This document shows, in pieces, positions 4,173-58,614 of a DNA stretch of 64,000 nt. Source of the DNA: Candidatus Sulfurimonas marisnigri (GTDB lineage Bacteria > Campylobacterota > Campylobacteria > Campylobacterales > Sulfurimonadaceae); assembly GCF_015265475.1 (NCBI RefSeq), contig NZ_CP054493.1, positions 1,364,001-1,428,000 of the forward strand, in the 5' to 3' direction. Made by a program: the position numbers and the translations under genes. Within the stretch, counting starts at the first letter, position 1, and every line of letters begins with the position of its first letter. Under the pieces are notes generated by a model. That model searched no databases and was not told where the DNA came from. It saw nothing but the letters and a program-made list of their open reading frames with translations.

Positions 4173-5375
4173 TTAGTCCCTTATGTAGCCCTCTTGTTTT
4201 AAAACATTATGAATATCAGCTTGATGCTGCTCACCTTTAGTCTCTACATGTACGGTTACATTTGCATCACCATAGTCAAGTGAAATCGATGTTCTATCAT
4301 ATGAAATATGAACAATATTGGCATTTAATTCTTGAAGAAGCTGTGTAAAATGCATAAGAGAACCAGGTTTATCAATTAGAGTAACGGTCAATTTCATCTT
4401 TCTTCCAGACTTCAAAAGACCTTTTTCAATAATAACAGAAAGAAGTGTAACATCCATATTTCCGCCGCTTAGAACTACTGCTACTTTTTTACCTTTTAAA
4501 TACTCTAACTTTTTATGAAGTAAAGCAGCTACACCAACAGCACCTGCACCTTCAACAACAAGTTTTTGTTTCTCTAGTAAAAACAAAATTGCACTGGCAA
4601 TCTCTTCATCATCTACGCTGATAAACTTGTCTACGCTACCAAGCATGTATTCTAACGTGATAGGTGAAGTATCACGAACTGCTATCCCGTCAGCTATCGT
4701 CCTAACACTGAGTGAATCAACAACTTTTTTAAGATCGTATGAATTTTTAAGGGCTGGAGCACCGGTGGCACTAACACCTATAACTTCAATATTTGAATTT
4801 ATACTTTTTATAGCGCATGCCATTCCAGATATAAGTCCTCCCCCGCCAACTGGGATGATTACAGCATCCAAATCTTCACATTTATCCAGAATATCTAAAG
4901 CCAATGTCCCCTGTCCGGCGATAACCTCTTCATCTTCAAAAGGGTGAATAAATGTTAAAGAGTTTTTCTTTCCATACTCTGTTGCGTATGCATAAGCTTC
5001 GTCATAATTACTTCCGGCGAGAATAACTTCTGCACCATAATATTTAACACCATTTACTTTTGTAAGAGGCGTTGATTCAGGCATAATAATCACAGCTTTA
5101 ATATTAAACTTTAGTGCTGAGAAGGCAACACCCTGTGCATGGTTTCCAGCACTTGCCGCAACAACACCACCAGCTCTTTGCTCATCATTTAATGATGCTA
5201 TTTTATTGTAAGCACCTCTTATCTTAAATGCGCCGGTTATTTGCAGATTCTCTTTTTTTAAGTAAACTTCACATGCAGATATTTTGCTTAAATATGGTGC
5301 ATATGATAGAGGTGTATCAACTACAATATCTTTTATACGCTCTTGTGCCTCATATATCTTTTTTATATCTAACAA
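4173..5375 (-). CDS. ilvA: threonine ammonia-lyase (threonine dehydratase)
   Basis: This PLP enzyme deaminates threonine to 2-oxobutyrate, the isoleucine precursor. The 400-residue form has the fold-type II catalytic domain with the PLP lysine in GAFKIRGA (Lys51), a phosphate-binding PVGGGGLISG loop near residue 176, and a C-terminal ACT-like domain from about residue 328 (MKLTVTLIDKPGSL). This is the short IlvA/TdcB-like architecture, not the 500-residue E. coli IlvA. The start is TTG, preceded by AAGGAAAG at suitable spacing. Close linkage to ilvBN supports a biosynthetic role, although a catabolic TdcB-like role cannot be excluded. Confidence 0.9.
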   Translation of the reverse strand: MLDIKKIYEAQERIKDIVVDTPLSYAPYLSKISACEVYLKKENLQITGAFKIRGAYNKIASLNDEQRAGGVVAASAGNHAQGVAFSALKFNIKAVIIMPESTPLTKVNGVKYYGAEVILAGSNYDEAYAYATEYGKKNSLTFIHPFEDEEVIAGQGTLALDILDKCEDLDAVIIPVGGGGLISGMACAIKSINSNIEVIGVSATGAPALKNSYDLKKVVDSLSVRTIADGIAVRDTSPITLEYMLGSVDKFISVDDEEIASAILFLLEKQKLVVEGAGAVGVAALLHKKLEYLKGKKVAVVLSGGNMDVTLLSVIIEKGLLKSGRKMKLTVTLIDKPGSLMHFTQLLQELNANIVHISYDRTSISLDYGDANVTVHVETKGEQHQADIHNVLKQEGYIRD

Positions 5376-5385
5376 TAAACTTTCC

Positions 5386-5811
5386 TTACAGAGCTTTATG
5401 CTCTATCATACTACACATATTTTGAACAACCATCATTCCAGCATTTTTTGCTCTTTGTGCCGCATCATTATTAACAATCTCTTTTTGAGCCCAAAAAACT
5501 TTTACATCTTTGCGTTTTATGCAGGCATCAGCAACATTATCCAGCTCTTTTGATTTTCTAAATATATCAACCATATCTATTGCAAAAGGTATCTCTTCAA
5601 GTGAGCGATAAACTTTTTCACCCAAAATCTCATCCTCTTTTGGATAAACCGGAACTATTTTAAACCCTTGTTCTTGAAGATATTTAGCGACTCTATGACT
5701 TGCCTTTGAAGCATCAGGAGAAAGCCCTAAAACTGCAATAGTTTTTACACTGCTAAAAATATCTTTTATCTCTTGCTTATTTGAATTAACAGAAGGGAAT
5801 TCACACTCCAT
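5386..5811 (-). CDS. CoA-binding (YccU-like) protein
   Basis: This 141-residue cytoplasmic protein is one Rossmann-like CoA_binding domain. The glycine-containing loop in IAVLGLSPDASKASHRVAKY (from about residue 24) and the following VPVYPKEDEILGEKVYRSLEEIP are typical of the stand-alone YccU type. These proteins bind CoA or nucleotide, but no specific reaction is established. The gene ends 10 bases before ilvA and probably shares its transcript. The family is clear; the role is unknown. Confidence 0.85.
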   Translation of the reverse strand: MECEFPSVNSNKQEIKDIFSSVKTIAVLGLSPDASKASHRVAKYLQEQGFKIVPVYPKEDEILGEKVYRSLEEIPFAIDMVDIFRKSKELDNVADACIKRKDVKVFWAQKEIVNNDAAQRAKNAGMMVVQNMCSMIEHKAL

Positions 5812-50496: not shown

Positions 50497-50511
50497 CGAT
50501 AACAATTATCA
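50497..50511. promoter_or_regulatory. Fur-box-like palindrome in a divergent promoter region
   Basis: CGATAACAATTATCA matches the 7-1-7 Fur consensus TGATAATnATTATCA at 12 of 14 arm positions. It overlaps a second palindrome, TTATCGATAA (50493-50502). A TATAAT for the porin begins at 50541 and a minus-strand TATAAT for the DUF695 gene at 50460, so the box could control either or both. Iron control is inferred. Confidence 0.5.
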
Positions 50512-50602
50512 TTTTAATATTCATTTAAGAATATTTAATATATAATTCTTCTACAACAATAAATTAAGACAACATTTGTTTTAATCATTAAAAAGGAAAA
50601 TT

Positions 50603-51844
50603 ATGAAATTATTAAATAACAAACTAGGATTAAGTGTAGCAACAACACTTTTACTATCAACTTCGGCATTTGCAGATACAGCTTCAGATATAGCAGAACT
50701 TAGAAAAGAGATAGCAGATCTTAAAGAGCTTTCAAGAACTTTGGTTGATGAGACAAGTGATCTTAAAACTGGTTTTAACTATACTAAAGTAGATTCTACT
50801 AAATCATACAGCGGTATGGGTGCAGCAGCTTCTAAAGTATACTACTCTAAATCTCCACTAAGTATAGGTGGTTATGGTGAAATGTATTACGCTCATACTT
50901 CAAATGAAGGTGCTACTAATTCCGATGTTATTGATGTTTATAGATTTATTCCATATATTGGTTATAAATTTAGTGACAACATCATCTTAAATGTCGAGTT
51001 AGAATTCGAACATGGTGGTGGCGGAGACAATGCATCTGGGGATGGTTATGTTATTGTTGAGTTTATGTACCTTGATTTTCTTTTCAACGAAAACATAAAC
51101 GCAAGAGTTGGTAATATGTTAATGCCAATGGGTCTAATCAATGAGAGACATGAACCAACATTATTTACTACTGTTCAAAGACCGAACACATCTAAGAGGC
51201 TAATTCCATCTACATGGCATGAAAATGGTGTTATGGCTTATGGAAATATAACTGATAGTTTGTCATATAAAGTTGGTGCATTTTCAGCTCTAGATTTAAC
51301 TTCTGGAGCAGGAGAAGGTGATGACTGGATGAGAAAAAGTCGTATTGGCTCATATAGAAATCAAAATAGATTAGGATTGGCTGGTGTTGCAAGAATAGAC
51401 TATACTGGAATTAACGGTCTTTTAATAGGTGCATCAACATATATGGATTCAGATTTAACAATGATTGATACACATGTTGATTATAATCTTGATGCTCTTC
51501 GAATTTATGGTGTTTTAACTCAAACAAGCCGTTCTAGTACTCCAATTGGTGAGCCTAAAAAAGCAAAAGGTGGCTTTTTAAATGTTGGTTATGATTTACT
51601 GTCATTTACTACATCTAAAAATAAAATGCCTGTTTTTATTCAGTATGAGAGTGTAGATGCTCAAGATGAAGTAGTTCTTCCTGCAACATCTTCTGATTCA
51701 ACTGAAACTATGAATACAACAACAGTAGGCATTAATTACTTTCCACATGAACAAGTTGTACTTAAAGCTGATTATGCGATGCAAACACAAAATGGATCAT
51801 CGGATAAAGATGTCTTTAGTCTTTCTATGGGTTTCATTTTCTAA
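50603..51844 (+). CDS. outer-membrane porin
   Basis: The 413-residue protein has a signal peptide ending TSAFA and a short coiled coil (DIAELRKEIADLKELSRTLVDET). A beta-rich body with alternating polar/hydrophobic strands follows, and the C-terminus ends in phenylalanine (FSLSMGFIF), as outer-membrane barrels do. The coiled coil is a feature of trimeric porins of this phylum. Ligand specificity cannot be read. AAAAAGGAAAA precedes the ATG, and a Fur-like box lies about 100 bases upstream, so iron-linked expression is possible. Confidence 0.85.
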   Translation: MKLLNNKLGLSVATTLLLSTSAFADTASDIAELRKEIADLKELSRTLVDETSDLKTGFNYTKVDSTKSYSGMGAAASKVYYSKSPLSIGGYGEMYYAHTSNEGATNSDVIDVYRFIPYIGYKFSDNIILNVELEFEHGGGGDNASGDGYVIVEFMYLDFLFNENINARVGNMLMPMGLINERHEPTLFTTVQRPNTSKRLIPSTWHENGVMAYGNITDSLSYKVGAFSALDLTSGAGEGDDWMRKSRIGSYRNQNRLGLAGVARIDYTGINGLLIGASTYMDSDLTMIDTHVDYNLDALRIYGVLTQTSRSSTPIGEPKKAKGGFLNVGYDLLSFTTSKNKMPVFIQYESVDAQDEVVLPATSSDSTETMNTTTVGINYFPHEQVVLKADYAMQTQNGSSDKDVFSLSMGFIF

Positions 51845-51865
51845 AAAGTTTTATTATCCTTTTGT

Positions 51866-51897
51866 GGCGCTCCTTTTCTCTCCTGTTTTGGAGCGCT
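51866..51897 (+). terminator. hairpin after the porin gene
   Basis: GGCGCTCC (51866-51873) and GGAGCGCT (51890-51897) form a GC-rich 7-base stem plus a G-T pair, with a 16-base loop. No T-run follows directly, so termination may be incomplete or stabilise the 3' end. Confidence 0.5.
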
Positions 51898-51919
51898 ATA
51901 CAAATCTTTACTAAAATTA

Positions 51920-51948
51920 TTGACAAAAAAACTATTATTCTATACAAT
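51920..51948 (+). promoter_or_regulatory. consensus sigma-70 promoter for the FMN-binding protein gene
   Basis: TTGACA (51920-51925) and TACAAT (51943-51948) are 17 bases apart, 27 bases before the ATG at 51975. This is one of the two best promoters in the window. A separate promoter from the porin gene implies separate control. Confidence 0.6.
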
Positions 51949-51974
51949 CAGCAAAAAATTAAAGAGACCCACCT

Positions 51975-52502
51975 ATGAAAAAAATTATTATATTAGCTTT
52001 TCTACTTTTATCAATACAACTAAGTGCTCAAATGCTTATTTCGCCTTATGATGCAATGAAAGCTGCTTATGGTGAAACAAGTGAAATAAGTAAAAAAAAC
52101 ATTGTATTAAAAAACACTCAAGCTAAAAAAATCTCTCAAGATGCAAAAGTTAAACTTTATAGCAAAATCACTAGAGTTTTTACAGCTAAAAAAGAGAATG
52201 AGCTACTAGGACATGGCATCTTAATAAGCAGAACTATGAGAACAAAAACCGTAGTAGTTTTATATATAATCACTAAAGATTCTGTTTTAAAAAGTAGTGA
52301 AATAATCGCTTTTAATGAACCAATGGAGTATCTTCCTTCAAAAACTTGGCTTGAGCAGTTTGAAAATCTATCTACTGATAAAAGACTTAGAGTCTCTAAA
52401 GATATCCCTACCATTACTGGTGCTACACTGACTGCTAGAGGTTTAGTGGATGGTTCAAGAGTCGCCTTTGCTTTTTATGAAGAGATTATAAAAGGTAAAT
52501 AA
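51975..52502 (+). CDS. exported FMN-binding domain protein
   Basis: The 175-residue protein has a signal peptide (LAFLLLSIQLSAQ) and a C-terminal FMN-binding domain with the attachment motif TITGATLTARGLV, close to the D/SGATxT site at which ApbE links FMN to threonine. The rest is a small alpha/beta domain (LYSKITRVFTAKKENELLGHGIL). It probably carries covalent flavin in the periplasm. Two membrane proteins follow, one with a 1-base overlap, and apbE lies convergent beyond them, so the group looks like a flavin electron-transfer set. Confidence 0.85.
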   Translation: MKKIIILAFLLLSIQLSAQMLISPYDAMKAAYGETSEISKKNIVLKNTQAKKISQDAKVKLYSKITRVFTAKKENELLGHGILISRTMRTKTVVVLYIITKDSVLKSSEIIAFNEPMEYLPSKTWLEQFENLSTDKRLRVSKDIPTITGATLTARGLVDGSRVAFAFYEEIIKGK

Positions 52503-52975
52503 TGAAATTTACACTTATCAACAATATAGAAAAAGATAGTGCTATGAGTCTTATATTAAAAGGCTTTTTGATTTTTATATTTTTATATTTAATAGCAGAT
52601 GTTTTAGTTATGAAATCAAGTTTTGGCATATCTATTGAAACAATTAATACAACACTTTTTGGTAACGAAGAAACATACGCAGACCCCTTAACAGAGTCTG
52701 CTTTTTTAGAGTTTTGGCATACACAAATATTTTTTATAATGATGGTTTTACTGACACTTAACGCTATATTTATTAGAGTTGCAAAAAGAAGTAGAGTTAT
52801 TTTAACGAATATGCTTATGATTAGCGCAATAAGCTCTCTAATCTCATTAGCTCTAGCTTTTTACATGTCAAATATATTTGTAAATATATATTTATTCACT
52901 TTTTCAACTTGGCACGCAGTAGCTGTTTATATGATTTTCTACTCATTTTGGAAACTAAATGCAAAAAGTATATAA
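52502..52975 (+). CDS. small four-helix membrane protein, function unknown
   Basis: The 157-residue product has about four hydrophobic segments (about 20-37, 73-92, 101-120 and 125-150). It has two tryptophan-flanked histidines (FWHTQIF and TWHAVAV) that could bind haem, but this is speculation. I recognise no family. It starts 1 base inside the FMN-protein gene end and is itself overlapped by 17 bases by the next gene, so all three are co-translated. Confidence 0.7.
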   Translation: MKFTLINNIEKDSAMSLILKGFLIFIFLYLIADVLVMKSSFGISIETINTTLFGNEETYADPLTESAFLEFWHTQIFFIMMVLLTLNAIFIRVAKRSRVILTNMLMISAISSLISLALAFYMSNIFVNIYLFTFSTWHAVAVYMIFYSFWKLNAKSI

Positions 52976-53405
52976 ACTCTCCATACTTTACTATCTACTC
53001 TTTTCACTGCTTCTTATTGCAAGTTCTGTTATGTTGTTCGAGCAAAAAATAGGTTTTAGTTTTAACAATGTTTTAGATTATTACCTTGGCAATGAAGATA
53101 AGTTTATTCCTGCTAAAAACAGTGGTGCAATTTTAAAAACAATATTGCCGCATATCTTTGTATTTGGACTGATTACTATGGTTCTTACACACTTTTTAGT
53201 TTTTACAAGACTTCGCTACAAAAAGAGTACATTAATTCTAATTTATCTAACTTTTATAACTTCTTTTTTAGAGATGGCTACTCCATTTTTAATAGTTAAC
53301 GGGTTTGAGTTTTTTGCTTACGTAAAGATACTATCTTTTTTTCTTTTCTTAGCGCTTATTCTATATATATCTTGGCTAATTTTTCACAGCATTGTTTACG
53401 AGTAG
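52959..53405 (+). CDS. small membrane protein, function unknown
   Basis: This 148-residue protein has about four hydrophobic segments (about 5-23, 61-81, 89-110 and 119-144). Two histidines lie in the second segment (LPHIFVFGLITMVLTHFLVF) and another in the last (LIFHSIVYE), positions compatible with cofactor binding. It resembles the preceding protein in size and layout, and the two may form a pair. Its 3' end overlaps apbE, on the other strand, by 30 bases. Confidence 0.7.
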   Translation: MQKVYKLSILYYLLFSLLLIASSVMLFEQKIGFSFNNVLDYYLGNEDKFIPAKNSGAILKTILPHIFVFGLITMVLTHFLVFTRLRYKKSTLILIYLTFITSFLEMATPFLIVNGFEFFAYVKILSFFLFLALILYISWLIFHSIVYE

Positions 53406-54326
53406 ATTTTTTGTAAACTTAGATATATTTTCACTTATTATAATCTTCTTATCACACTGCATAACTATATAACCTACACCAAGAGAGTTTAAAAACTCAT
53501 ACCCTTTCTTAGTCGGCATTACGCTAGCAGCTGTAGCATAAGCGTCTAAATCAGCACTAGGCATACTTCCAATCAATGTTATAGATATAAACTTAGTTTG
53601 TGGTGCTTTTAGCTTTGGATTTATTAGGTGATTATTCTTAGTAGTTCCAACATATCTGTTATAGTTTCCGCTTGTTGTTATCCCCAAATCATTTTTACTT
53701 GTCTCAAATGATAGCAAATGACCTTCGCTAAATGGGTCTTGCACATGTAGCATACATGTAGAGAGACATCTTATATCTCCGCTAGCGCGAATAGTTGCAT
53801 TTACAACGTCCTTATTTCTAAAATACTCTGCCACTTTATCAACAGCAAAACCTTTGCCCATTCCACCCAAATCAACCTGCATACCATATTCCATACAGGC
53901 TTTTTCTTTTTCTACATGTAGCCCTTGTATTTTAACTATTGCACCACTTAACTCTTTGCTTGTCGGCACTCTTTGTTCTTCTCCAAATTTGTAAAGTTTT
54001 TTAGTAACTGAACCAATTGTAATATCAAAATAGCCATCTGTCCGTTTATAATATCTTTGGCTTAGTGTGAGTGCTTCGTAGCTATACTTATCTAAACCTA
54101 TTTTGAATAAATTTTTATTAAGTTGATAAATTATAGAATTTGGATTATATGAAGATATAGAATTGTCAACATCTTTTATGATATTAAAGGCATCTTCAAT
54201 GTAGTTTTTATTTTCTTCTTCTACTGAGACAGTTACAAATGTTGACATAATTATTTGAGTGCGAGAGATTGTTTTAGCCTCTAAAGAGAGCACTAAAACA
54301 AAGAAAAGTAAAACTATTTTAGACAT
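53376..54326 (-). CDS. apbE: FAD:protein FMN transferase
   Basis: ApbE moves FMN from FAD to a threonine in flavoprotein targets. The 316-residue protein has a signal peptide (LLFFVLVLSLEAKT), the QVDLGGMGKGFAVDKVAEYFR motif near residue 150 and the metal-binding region around SADLDAYATAASVMPT. Acting in the periplasm, it could flavinylate the convergent FMN-binding protein. Its end overlaps the last gene of that group by 30 bases. It lies 3 bases after ribBA, which makes a flavin precursor, so the two are probably co-transcribed. Confidence 0.93.
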   Translation of the reverse strand: MSKIVLLFFVLVLSLEAKTISRTQIIMSTFVTVSVEEENKNYIEDAFNIIKDVDNSISSYNPNSIIYQLNKNLFKIGLDKYSYEALTLSQRYYKRTDGYFDITIGSVTKKLYKFGEEQRVPTSKELSGAIVKIQGLHVEKEKACMEYGMQVDLGGMGKGFAVDKVAEYFRNKDVVNATIRASGDIRCLSTCMLHVQDPFSEGHLLSFETSKNDLGITTSGNYNRYVGTTKNNHLINPKLKAPQTKFISITLIGSMPSADLDAYATAASVMPTKKGYEFLNSLGVGYIVMQCDKKIIISENISKFTKNLLVNNAVKN

Positions 54327-54329
54327 AAG

Positions 54330-55358
54330 CTATATATCAATTACCTCATTTACCTCTAATCCAAAACCGCCCAAACCTACAAACTCTGCCTGTTTTAGAG
54401 ATGTAAGCAAGTTCATTTTAGAAATCCCTAAAGATTTTAAAATCTGAGCACCAGTTCCTATCTCTTTCATAGCAGCATTATCTTGATGATTTGTTTTATT
54501 TATAAATACTAGAACTCCACTGTTTAGTTTTAAATACTCTATAGAAGACACAAGATTATTATATTTTTTTTGATTCAAAAGAAGTTCTATATCTGGTACA
54601 ACATTGTGAACTCTAACATTTGCAACAGCTCCGGCATTGTGAAATACAATAGCAGTATGTTCTACTTTATCGTGGTCTGTAAAAGTATGTTGCTTAACTT
54701 TAGTGCCAAAAAATTCCATTTCTTGAACATTAGTCTCATTAACAAGTCTCTCATTTGCTAAGCGATATTCAACAATATCAGATATGAAAACAGTTTTAAG
54801 ATTATGCTTTTCACCAAAGATATCCAAATCATCACGTCTAGCCATCGTTCCATCTTCTTTAATGATTTCACATATAACAGAAGACTCACTAAGTCCCGCT
54901 AAACGGCATAAATCTACAGAACCCTCTGTATGACCTGTTCTTACTAGTGTACCACCATCTTTGGCGATAAGAGGGAAAATATGACCGGGCTTAACTAAAT
55001 CATCAGCATGACTAATTGGATTTGCTAAAATCTTAATAGTATCATCTCTCTCAGAAGCAGATATACCGGTTAAAGCATTTTTTGCATCAACTGACACAGT
55101 AAAAGCTGTCTCATATGAAGATGTATTTGAACTTATCATTGGATTAAGCTCAAGTCTAGTAGCAATAGTCTTACTAAGAGCAACGCATATAAGTCCTCTC
55201 GCATGTGTTGCCATAAAGTTTACATGTGCAGGGGTTGAAAAAGCCGAGGCATAAACTAAATCACCCTCATTCTCTCTATCTTCATCATCACACATGATGA
55301 CCATTTTACCCTTTTTAATCTCGTCAATTGCTTCTAGTACTCTTTGTATAGGTGTCAT
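54330..55358 (-). CDS. ribBA: 3,4-dihydroxy-2-butanone 4-phosphate synthase with degenerate GTP cyclohydrolase II domain
   Basis: Residues from about 1 to 205 form RibB, which makes the four-carbon unit of riboflavin; DDEDRENEGDLV, RGLICVALS and RTGHTEGSVDL are intact. The remaining 135 residues resemble the RibA fold but lack its zinc cysteines and the usual GTP site, so that half is probably inactive. This split is known in Campylobacterota and others. No FMN riboswitch can be recognised upstream. apbE follows after 3 bases, linking flavin synthesis to flavinylation. Confidence 0.9.
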   Translation of the reverse strand: MTPIQRVLEAIDEIKKGKMVIMCDDEDRENEGDLVYASAFSTPAHVNFMATHARGLICVALSKTIATRLELNPMISSNTSSYETAFTVSVDAKNALTGISASERDDTIKILANPISHADDLVKPGHIFPLIAKDGGTLVRTGHTEGSVDLCRLAGLSESSVICEIIKEDGTMARRDDLDIFGEKHNLKTVFISDIVEYRLANERLVNETNVQEMEFFGTKVKQHTFTDHDKVEHTAIVFHNAGAVANVRVHNVVPDIELLLNQKKYNNLVSSIEYLKLNSGVLVFINKTNHQDNAAMKEIGTGAQILKSLGISKMNLLTSLKQAEFVGLGGFGLEVNEVIDI

Positions 55359-55480: not shown

Positions 55481-55509
55481 TTGACAAATAGAAGTAAAAA
55501 ACCTATAAT
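55481..55509 (+). promoter_or_regulatory. consensus promoter of the tRNA operon
   Basis: TTGACA (55481-55486) and TATAAT (55504-55509) are exactly 17 bases apart, and the first tRNA begins 40 bases downstream. Strong stable-RNA promoters often look like this. It contrasts with the weak -35 regions elsewhere in the window. Confidence 0.75.
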
Positions 55510-55857: not shown

Positions 55858-56640
55858 CTAACTCAAACGATTTGTAATGAATCTTACTACTAAAAATACT
55901 AACATGCTAAATCCTATAATAACTGCTGCCAATGGTGCACTGTAACTAAGCCCATAACTATTGAACCTGTCAAATATAAGCACTGGTGTTGTCATTGGAT
56001 GATAAACTAAGATAACTATTGCACCAAACTCTCCAAGGCCTCTACTCCACATCATTAAAGCACCATTTATTATGTCTTTTTTTGCATTAGGTATTGTAAT
56101 TCTAAAAAATACATTAATAGGAGAAGCCCCTAATGTTCTTGCTGTTTTTTCAAGTTTGACATCTACTTTTCTAAATCCATCTTTTGCGCTATTTATTAAA
56201 AATGGAGCCGATAAGAACATCATAGCTATCATAATTCCGTACTCAGTGCCTATAAACTCTATTCCAAAAAATTTAAAAAACTCACCTATTTCAGTATCTC
56301 CAAAAGTTGTAAGAAGAGCTATACCTGCAGCAGTGTGAGGTATCATAACTGGAATATCTATTAATGACTCAACTAAACTTTTTCCAAAAAAATCATATCT
56401 TGCTATTACATAAGCAAGTGGCAAACCTGTAAAAAGTACAAAAACCATTGCCCACGCAGATACTTTCATAGTAAGGATAATAGAATCAATTGCTTCACCA
56501 TCTTTTATAGTCTCTAGTAGCTTTTCACTTCCCACACCAATAAATATTTTAATGATAGGAATGCTTAGAAAAAACACTATAATAAGCGCTAAGACTATTA
56601 ATGTAATGTTAAATAAATTGCTTTTGTTTATTGCTTTCAC
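55858..56640 (-). CDS. wtpB: tungstate/molybdate ABC transporter permease
   Basis: This is the membrane part of an oxyanion importer. The 260-residue protein has about six hydrophobic segments and the cytoplasmic EAA loop that contacts the ATPase (KLEKTARTLGASPINVFFRITIP). It starts with GTG, 21 bases after the ATPase gene. The binding protein is WtpA-like, so the system is named wtp, but a ModB assignment is equally possible from the permease alone. It ends the formate-dehydrogenase/metal cluster. Confidence 0.88.
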   Translation of the reverse strand: MKAINKSNLFNITLIVLALIIVFFLSIPIIKIFIGVGSEKLLETIKDGEAIDSIILTMKVSAWAMVFVLFTGLPLAYVIARYDFFGKSLVESLIDIPVMIPHTAAGIALLTTFGDTEIGEFFKFFGIEFIGTEYGIMIAMMFLSAPFLINSAKDGFRKVDVKLEKTARTLGASPINVFFRITIPNAKKDIINGALMMWSRGLGEFGAIVILVYHPMTTPVLIFDRFNSYGLSYSAPLAAVIIGFSMLVFLVVRFITNRLS

Positions 56641-56661
56641 TGTACTTCCTTTTTTAATAAT

Positions 56662-57648
56662 CTATATAAAACTAATATCTTTTTTATCAAACCCTATTTG
56701 GATTGTCTTTGTTCTATCTGTATAACACCCTTCATAGTCTCTTTTTAAAATTTTTATAAAAAACTGATGTTGCTTAACTTTTACAAAAAGTTTGTAATGG
56801 TCAACTATCCCCATACATTCATCAACTACTCCCTCAAAAATATAATCAGCTTGAATATCATCATCTTTAGATACTTTAATAACATTTGGATCCACAGAAT
56901 AAACCTTTGTAGAAGATTCATATCCAAGCATTGTTGCCGGAAAAATATTTTTAAAACCTAAAAATTTTGCTACTTCTATATTTGCAGGGTGATTTAAAAC
57001 ATCTTTTGCAGCACCCACTTGTTTAATCTCTCCATCCATAATAATTGCTATTTTATCAGCCAAGTAAGAAGCCTCTCTAAAGTTATGCGTTACATGTATA
57101 GTAATAACGTTATATCTTCTATGAATGTCTTTTAAACTCTTCATAATCGCATTTCTAAATGTTGGGTCAATTGCACTTAATGGCTCGTCCAAAAGTAAAA
57201 TTTTAGGTCTTGAAAATATAGCTCTTGCTATCGCTACACGTTGCTTCTCCCCACCACTTAAGTCTTGAGTATCACGCTCAAGCAAAGTTTCTAATTTTAA
57301 AAATTCAACTATATCTTTAAACAGTTCATCTGATTTTTCTATCTTTTTATATCTAGATGAGAACCTAATATTCTCTTGAACATTCAGATTTGGAAATAGT
57401 GCAAAGTCCTGATATACAAAACCGATATCTCTCTTTTCTGTTGCTACCAAAGAGATCTCTTTACCTTTATAAATTATATTTCCACTACATGTATTTAATC
57501 CGGCAATGGTCTCTAGTAACATAGTCTTTCCACTTCCGCTTTGACCAAGAAGAACAAAATACTCATTATTTTGTATATCTAGGTTTATGTCTTTAAGTGA
57601 AAAGTCACCTCTATTGCTTGATAGATTTTGTATTTTTAAATTATCCAT
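56662..57648 (-). CDS. wtpC: tungstate/molybdate ABC transporter ATPase
   Basis: The 328-residue protein has an ABC domain with Walker A GQSGSGKTMLL near residue 35, signature LSGGEKQRVAIARA, Walker B ILLLDEPLSAIDP and HVTHNF. A C-terminal region of about 100 residues (MLGYESSTKVYS onward) looks like a TOBE-type oxyanion-binding domain, which may give feedback inhibition as in ModC. It follows wtpA by 6 bases and precedes wtpB by 21. Confidence 0.9.
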   Translation of the reverse strand: MDNLKIQNLSSNRGDFSLKDINLDIQNNEYFVLLGQSGSGKTMLLETIAGLNTCSGNIIYKGKEISLVATEKRDIGFVYQDFALFPNLNVQENIRFSSRYKKIEKSDELFKDIVEFLKLETLLERDTQDLSGGEKQRVAIARAIFSRPKILLLDEPLSAIDPTFRNAIMKSLKDIHRRYNVITIHVTHNFREASYLADKIAIIMDGEIKQVGAAKDVLNHPANIEVAKFLGFKNIFPATMLGYESSTKVYSVDPNVIKVSKDDDIQADYIFEGVVDECMGIVDHYKLFVKVKQHQFFIKILKRDYEGCYTDRTKTIQIGFDKKDISFI

Positions 57649-57654
57649 TTTTTA

Positions 57655-58614
57655 TTACTTTCCAATTATGGAAGCATCTCCGGTAATAATTGCTGGAGAT
57701 ACAACTCCCTGACCATTTTTAATCATAATCTCTTGACCTTGCTCTGAAAGTACAAAGTTTACAAACTTGATTGCACCTTCTTTGTTTGCTGGTGACTTTT
57801 TATTTTGTGCAACTGTAATGCCGTAAATCATTGCTCCACCTTTTTTAGTGATGAACTGACCTGGTTTTTTTCCACTTATGTCAAACGAAGCAGTTTCATA
57901 GAACTCTTTAAACTCATTGTCTTTTAAAGAGACTTGCTTTGGCAGAGTAATATACTTTAATCCATGTTGCTCGGCAACTGACTTGTATATGAAAAGATAA
58001 TCATAAGCATTAGCTTCGATTAGTCCTAATAAATCTGTCTCTTTTGGTCTAACTATAACTTTGTTTCTATCTTCTTCACCAACTTCATATGAATCACCAT
58101 ATCCAAACAATTTATCAAAAAAACCTGGAGTTTTATAATGCTTTTCTGCAAGTATTGTTACTAATATTGACCTATATCCACATGGATCCATGTTTGGATT
58201 TGAGTGTCCAACTTTTACACCCTCTCTTAGAAAGATTTCTGGCCAGTTTTGTGCATTTATCTCATCAGCGTATTTAGCTTTTGAGGTATAAGCTATTGCC
58301 ATCTCATTAGTCGCAAATTGTGCGTTAAATTTCGCATGGTTTGGAATAAGCAAGTTGTTTATTACATTGTAATCAGCACTAGCCATTACATCAGCAGCTT
58401 TACCGATTTCAGAGATTTTTCTAGCAGCTGCCCTACTTCCACTAGCTTCTCTTTGTACATCGTACTGTGGATATTTTGCTTCAAATACTTTTTCTATTTC
58501 TGCAAATGGAACAGCTAAACTACCAGCATGAAATACAGTTATTTTCTCTTTTGCTAAAACGTTTGATGCCAATAAAGCACTTAATACTAATGTTAGTAAT
58601 ATTTTTTTATTCAT
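57655..58614 (-). CDS. wtpA: tungstate/molybdate-binding protein WtpA
   Basis: This periplasmic protein captures molybdate or tungstate. The 319-residue product has a signal peptide ending NVLAK and the WtpA/ModA hallmarks VFHAGSLAVPFAEIEKVFEAKYP, REASGSRAAARKI, ADVMASADYNVI and NPNMDPCGYRS. The first of these separates WtpA from classical ModA; tungstate preference of some WtpA proteins is established, but cannot be judged here. It starts 1 base after the moeA stop, within a continuous operon. Confidence 0.93.
   Translation of the reverse strand: MNKKILLTLVLSALLASNVLAKEKITVFHAGSLAVPFAEIEKVFEAKYPQYDVQREASGSRAAARKISEIGKAADVMASADYNVINNLLIPNHAKFNAQFATNEMAIAYTSKAKYADEINAQNWPEIFLREGVKVGHSNPNMDPCGYRSILVTILAEKHYKTPGFFDKLFGYGDSYEVGEEDRNKVIVRPKETDLLGLIEANAYDYLFIYKSVAEQHGLKYITLPKQVSLKDNEFKEFYETASFDISGKKPGQFITKKGGAMIYGITVAQNKKSPANKEGAIKFVNFVLSEQGQEIMIKNGQGVVSPAIITGDASIIGK

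Follow-up and report, generated by a model that had tools for sequence, protein, structure and literature searches.

In Candidatus Sulfurimonas marisnigri, a conserved block of genes encodes a porin-like outer-membrane protein, an exported protein that binds flavin mononucleotide (FMN), two small paralogous membrane proteins (memA and memB, together memAB) and the FAD:protein FMN transferase ApbE. We propose that the products of this block form a periplasmic flavin chain that is fed by memAB and reduces ferric iron when iron is scarce, a reading in which our confidence is evenly balanced. The block lies in a stretch of 64,000 nucleotides (the window; positions 1,364,001 to 1,428,000 of contig NZ_CP054493.1), which is part of a 2.49 Mb single-contig genome. 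It is characterized by its gene order, its conservation among relatives, the co-occurrence of memA with ApbE, a membrane pair of paralogues that carry four conserved histidines between them and the recurrence of a Fur-type box in front of the porin.

Organization of the gene block

The FMN protein (175 amino acids; 51975-52502, plus strand) is an FMN_bind/RnfG-like exported protein with a predicted flavinylation site, T151, in a TGAT motif. Its gene overlaps by 1 base that of memA (52502-52975, plus strand), a four-helix membrane protein of 157 amino acids, and memA in turn overlaps by 17 bases memB (52959-53405, plus strand), which encodes a four-helix paralogue of 148 amino acids. The porin-like protein (413 amino acids; 50603-51844, plus strand) is encoded ahead of these three, and a Fur-box-like palindrome, CGATAACAATTATCA (50497-50511, no strand assigned), is found 91 bases 5' of its start. 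On the minus strand, apbE (53376-54326) and the gene of a RibBA-type protein (54330-55358) converge on the plus-strand genes, with the 3' end of apbE overlapping memB by 30 bases. An earlier note on this DNA had read the group as a possible flavin electron-transfer unit; the genes, overlaps and motifs that it described were all found in place, and its spacing of 3 bases between ribBA and the downstream apbE is exact by coordinates (54330 against 54326).

The exported FMN protein and its predicted transferase

The N-terminus of the FMN protein resembles a signal peptide by eye, and the attachment motif reads T148-G149-A150-T151. G149, A150 and T151 are invariant in 24/24 aligned sequences, while position 148 is S or T. 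Taken alone, the window protein scores under the cut-off of the FMN_bind model (19.3 versus 22 bits). The model is matched at E<=1 by 24/24 of the aligned FMN proteins (best E 4.5e-7), and RnfG structures are recovered with the FMN-protein profile (E 1.4e-10), the TGAT site lining up with the site of RnfG. The description of this gene product as an exported FMN-binding protein with a TGAT-type site is borne out by the presence of the motif, the invariance of three of its four positions and the family assignment by profile.

ApbE is unequivocal by comparison with Pfam PF02424 (182.8 bits, cut-off 25.6 bits) and with transferases in the PDB (E 1.5e-20), and by eye it also has a signal-peptide-like start. 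It is the sole PF02424 match in the genome, which likewise holds one FMN_bind match (E<=1), and the two adjoin. Because these single matches are neighbors, ApbE has an obvious substrate in the FMN protein, and we infer from family and motif that it carries a covalent flavin attached by this enzyme.

The adjoining RibBA-type protein is matched in full over its RibB half. The GTP cyclohydrolase II half has a zinc site; here that half is short in the best match and is without a cysteine, so that the zinc site seems to be lost. Activity is probably confined to the RibB half.

Paralogous membrane proteins with four conserved histidines

AlphaFold models of memA and memB each present four long helices at moderate confidence (mean pLDDT 74 and 82), and by the positive-inside rule, applied by eye, both termini of both proteins are cytoplasmic. 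The two are paralogues: hhalign gives 93% for alignments of near relatives, and 95% with E 1.6e-8 for the wide alignments. From alignment A1 we left out 6/28 memA sequences as near-identical or frame-shifted, and from A2 6/28 memB sequences as near-identical or truncated; A9 and A10 do not include locus L069, which is nearly identical to L068.

Conservation converges on a small set of residues in alignments that reach down to about 20% identity. In memB, M1, P64, H65, H78 and F82 are invariant (25/25), with the P64-H65 pair and H78 on helix 2. In memA, H73 on helix 2 is kept in 24/24 sequences and H138 on helix 4 in 23/24. Within the periplasmic third of helix 2, memB H65 corresponds by homology to memA H73, and H78 is located thirteen residues from H65 on the same memB helix, toward the cytoplasm. 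In the ligand scheme of two-heme cytochromes b, two histidines 13-14 residues apart on one helix are complemented by one histidine on each of two others. memA and memB taken together fit this four-histidine scheme with its 13-spaced pair. Neither window protein contains a cysteine. The view of the pair as two small four-helix proteins with histidines in or next to the membrane segments thus stands, with four helices in the models and four near-invariant histidines.

The pair could not be assigned to a known family. memA, memB and their relatives match nothing over cut-off in Pfam, and the two window proteins have no match in NCBIfam. The transmembrane classes of the flavinylation survey were searched at E<=1 with 23 memA and 23 memB sequences, and at E<=0.1 with a wider set of 24 and 25; no match was found to PF01794 (MsrQ-like), to PF03929 or PF16357 (PepSY-like), to PF12801 (NapH-like, with 4Fe-4S ligands) or to PF03116 (the NQR/RNF-like membrane protein). 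Nor did hmmscan match PF14358 (DUF4405) in any memA or memB member. PF01292 (b561) is weakly matched by 2/25 memB members, at positions 100-173 (E 0.0017) and 103-167 (E 0.0025), none over cut-off (best 18.6 versus 30.1 bits); these matches cover the helix 3-4 segment of the profile, which carries such a histidine pair. The remark that no such gene set was familiar holds, in that memA and memB match no Pfam model of the survey's transmembrane classes. Structural comparison gave no confident match: memB against cytochrome b of a bc1 complex scores Z 5.7 (rmsd 4.5, 135 residues aligned), and generic helical bundles reach higher Z. A common descent of memAB with known b cytochromes is proved by none of these comparisons.

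Conservation of the block and its link with ApbE

Homology and neighborhood searches, suggested in the earlier note, placed memA and memB in no known family and found the block in 40 further loci, nine of whose contigs are named Sulfurimonas. With the window, 41 loci were examined, each chosen for matches to memA or memB. Both genes are present in all 41, the FMN gene in 40, apbE in 38 of the stretches, the porin in 32 and ribBA in 24. Other genera, distributed over six families of the order, contribute fourteen of the loci, and the porin is present in 14/14 of these; in locus L077 it has the opposite orientation. A single-sequence search found memA in 23/60 near relatives.

The link between memA and ApbE extends over the phylum, from which 397 genomes were evenly sampled. 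memA occurs in 38/397 and ApbE in 56/397, and ApbE is found in 38/38 of the memA genomes versus 18/359 of the others. Both were unmatched in 341/397; memA was found in 0/341 of the genomes lacking ApbE. In 36/38 genomes ApbE is encoded at most 5 kb from memA, and in 32/38 it is the single ApbE match. Since the genomes are related, the Fisher value for this co-occurrence overstates their independence. Several families hold the link, and the position of apbE varies among them, either downstream and converging or upstream and diverging (L071, L072, L074 and L075). With ApbE in every memA genome, the sole FMN_bind match, the attachment motif and the four-histidine signature, there is good support for the idea of a flavin electron-transfer unit.

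The porin and its Fur-type box

The porin has a signal-peptide-like start and a coiled-coil-like stretch (both by eye), followed by a barrel according to weak family matches. Its assignment is a weak one (PF07396, 19.8 bits versus a cut-off of 20.9), and 45 columns are invariant among 19 aligned sequences. We also considered a flavinylated porin of the DUF3570 kind; the candidate was dropped, as the protein has neither a PF12094 match nor an [S/T]GA[S/T] motif.

The palindrome CGATAACAATTATCA at 50497-50511 closely resembles the Helicobacter pylori Fur operator, TAATAAT-n-ATTATTA, in the form in which PMC9696931 quotes it. A single site of this kind proves nothing, and support is drawn instead from recurrence across loci. 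Each locus was scored against first-order shuffles with two motifs, for a chance rate of about 4% per locus. At p<=0.02 on one motif or both, 29/31 loci have a Fur-type box ahead of the porin, the other two loci giving 0.025. When all 41 loci were rerun, the count was 31/32, with L071 as the exception; this is not a probability, given the relatedness of the loci and the use of two motifs. In L072, L090 and L092 the best 19-base match starts 2 bases into the longest open frame, although translation may in truth begin further on.

Among the control regions, a box was scored before the FMN gene in 2/40 loci (L069, and L077, where the region is shared with a divergent porin), before memA in 2/41, before apbE in 3/38 (among them L072 and L075, in which apbE and the porin diverge from one region) and before ribBA in 0/24. 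As a positive comparison, a box precedes feoAB in 19/30 loci, the window's own genome, which encodes FeoB, included. The porin with a Fur-like box ahead of the group, first seen in the window, is thereby found to be a recurrent arrangement. It lends indirect support to the earlier suggestion of an iron reductase.

Proposed mechanism and its alternatives

We propose the following course of events. ApbE, exported, would flavinylate the likewise exported FMN protein at T151, as family and motif suggest. memA and memB would assemble as a heterodimer in the cytoplasmic membrane and hold two b-type hemes, with memB H65/H78 and memA H73/H138 as ligands, and this heterodimer would oxidize menaquinol. 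Heme and a menaquinol donor are suggested by the conservation of the histidines, by the two-heme helix pattern and by a gene set that has no NAD(P)H, Fe-S or other donor domain. Electrons would then pass from the outer heme to the flavin and on to a periplasmic acceptor. The Fur box and the adjoining porin point to ferric iron, entering through that porin, as the likeliest acceptor. The resulting Fe2+ would be imported by FeoB. The porin would be controlled by Fur, as would the entire operon in many relatives. A quinone link, which the earlier note also raised, is plausible. From the sequences we thus infer a covalent flavin, heme, a heterodimer, the direction of electron flow, a quinone link and an iron substrate.

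Several findings weigh against this reading. Genome-wide, the Fur-like pattern has 77 matches versus 82 for its reversed form, so the window's single box is unremarkable, and of ten sites examined closely seven lie inside open frames and one at a frame start. The porin and FMN genes of the window are separated by 130 bases. Folding of the stretch 51840-51935 gives a strong hairpin (z = -4.4), formed by GGCGCTCC...GGAGCGCT at 51861-51904 on the plus strand; it is without a T run and is not listed as a terminator. The FMN gene moreover has a promoter-like sequence of its own, a sigma-70-like TTGACA-17-TACAAT (51920-51948, plus strand) that matches 11/12 positions by consensus only and ends 26 bases 5' of the gene; promoter-like sites in the region number 23, versus 25.0 expected in shuffles. 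Gap, hairpin and promoter-like sequence together suggest that FMN, memA and memB may be transcribed independently in the window.

The composition of the block also varies. Eight of the 40 loci with an FMN gene have neither a porin nor a box before that gene (L029, L032, L034, L074, L087, L188, L189 and L190), and in L192 (G013) the porin is reduced to a 126-codon fragment at 5029-5407, before the FMN gene. L191 has memA, memB and ApbE without an FMN gene, and in L079, L081 and L088 (3/41) ApbE is not within the stretch examined. The adjacency of ribBA (24/41 loci) is limited to loci of the same genus, and not all of these have it. Among the proteins flanking the distant loci (82/124 scanned), no recurrent iron transporter appears in the 25 of 102 families listed. 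Regarding the earlier claim of a unit, the recurrence of the block speaks for it, and the loci lacking porin and box, the one locus lacking the FMN gene and the hairpin and promoter-like sequence in the window qualify it.

Within the membrane pair, residue counts from the inner face place memA H138 at a depth about midway between H65 and H78 of memB, so the pairing of the histidines as ligands is not settled, and the distant locus L081 has no equivalent of H138. Against b561-type proteins hhalign gives 1%. The nearest profile comparison is to DUF4405, at 22% for memB with the wide DUF4405 set; the narrow set gives 7% for memB, and memA reaches 0.6%. A sequence search of the PDB with memA and memB found no solved structure at E<=10, and Foldseek with VIA-align returned only generic helical bundles, an absence that excludes no family.

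One alternative, which we regard as somewhat unlikely, is that the flavin chain is real and serves another purpose, such as the repair of oxidized periplasmic proteins, the task of MsrPQ, or electron delivery to a different small acceptor. In that case the Fur box would reflect the porin only, or an iron-sparing switch. The promoter-like sequence of the FMN gene, the eight FMN loci without porin and box and the lack of a recurrent iron transporter among the flanking families listed are all in line with this, as are four thioredoxin-like proteins and two DsbD proteins among the 82 flanking proteins. Against it stand the box before the porin in 31/32 loci and the 13/30 loci in which the porin and FMN genes overlap or are at most 13 bases apart (the count leaves out L077, with its divergent porin), so that the whole set stands behind the Fur-type box. 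Also against it, no further enzyme was found in the conserved block among the proteins tested for.

Alternatively, a porin under iron regulation may simply stand next to a second, independent module made up of the flavinylated protein and its membrane pair. The hairpin and the promoter-like sequence in the window speak for such an arrangement, 14/30 loci have porin-FMN gaps of more than 80 bases, and 9/41 blocks are without a porin, eight of them with an FMN gene. Yet the porin adjoins in 32/41 loci, including every one from other genera, and the tight or overlapping junctions of the 13 loci speak against independence. We hold this to be unlikely.

That memA and memB contain no heme is, in our judgment, quite improbable. 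They would then be a quinone- or metal-ion-binding module whose histidines bind protons or metal, for example a carrier of Fe2+ or Mn2+ beside the flavin reductase. There is no confident homology to any heme protein, H138 of memA is at the depth of neither memB histidine by residue count, and Mn efflux pump genes account for 3/82 of the flanking proteins. Against these stand two invariant histidines that share a helix at the classic two-heme spacing of 13 residues, the weak PF01292 matches of two members, which fall on that very helix, and the FeoB already available for Fe2+ in the genome. Least probable of all, and very doubtful, is a heme-free outer-membrane conduit in which the flavoprotein would dock at or in the porin and ferric iron would be reduced at or beyond the cell surface, with memAB as a new class of split four-histidine cytochrome b that would hand menaquinol electrons to the flavoprotein, the whole forming a flavin counterpart of porin-cytochrome complexes. 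The periplasmic flavin chain that is fed by memAB and reduces ferric iron remains the reading we prefer.

Variant loci and neighboring genes

Some loci show local departures from the common arrangement. The porin fragment of L192 is still preceded by a Fur-type box. In L022 and L090 (G011), which belong to a single-contig genome, a frame change breaks memA in two, by decay or by sequencing error; the FMN gene and memB seem whole, and in L090 RibBA is split as well. L015 and L191 (G026) have memA, memB and ApbE, with neither an FMN gene nor a porin between memA and an RraB-like gene; the gene of the flavoprotein may lie elsewhere or may have disappeared. The distant block of L081 consists of the porin, FMN and memA genes and that of a memB-like protein of 117 amino acids, with no ApbE in 13 kb. 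In L073 and L076, within one genus, a protein of about 650 amino acids directly adjoins apbE; these are possibly the two DsbD-type flanking proteins.

In the window, a perfect TTGACA-17-TATAAT promoter-like sequence (55481-55509, plus strand) is located past the start of ribBA and before transporter genes, with no gene identified directly after it. The transporter genes encode an ABC set of permease, ATPase and exported binding protein (55858-58614, minus strand), which by eye resembles molybdate/tungstate uptake.

Comparison with known systems

Searches limited to open-licence papers found no description of the porin-FMN-memA-memB-ApbE set. Flavinylated systems are defined in the survey of Meheust 2021 (PMC8238504), in the parts consulted here, by key genes: NapH-like, MsrQ-like, PepSY-like, DsbD and NQR/RNF-like, together with characterized ones; in its main text the word Campylobacter appears in two references only. 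memAB resembles the known flavin-linked cytochromes and fails the tests for their families, which argues for an undescribed membrane module in a known type of system. If the proposal is true, memAB would join the short list of membrane modules that feed electrons to covalently flavinylated periplasmic proteins, and it would be a two-heme cytochrome b built from two small paralogous subunits. For a major group of marine redoxcline and vent chemolithotrophs, the block would also tie iron reduction to a defined set of genes.

The FMN protein shares with RnfG and NqrC the FMN_bind domain and a threonine site of the SGAT/TGAT type. It differs from them in having, by eye, no membrane helix after its signal-peptide-like start, and the other Rnf or Nqr subunits were not found among the genes of the block. 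A physiological parallel comes from the same phylum: in Helicobacter pylori and Campylobacter jejuni, as outlined in PMC6041382, extracellular ferric reduction is tied to flavin supply and low iron, and the mechanism in C. jejuni is called unknown. The difference is that the ferric reduction there is connected with the production of riboflavin.

The four-histidine cytochromes DUF4405 and FezC were added to the list by Huang 2024 (PMC10979944). FezC, the ferrosome cytochrome, is like memA and memB a small membrane protein that would complete its heme sites by pairing; as that paper describes it, FezC is proposed to pair with itself, whereas memA and memB are two diverged paralogues. There is likeness too to the MsrQ-like, PepSY-like and DUF4405 systems as presented in PMC8238504 and PMC10979944, which combine ApbE, an extracytosolic flavinylated protein and a membrane protein in which histidines, placed as for b hemes, are the residues best conserved, with links to iron. 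The block described here stands apart from them in two respects: the four histidines are split between two paralogous four-helix subunits, and a porin adjoins in most loci.

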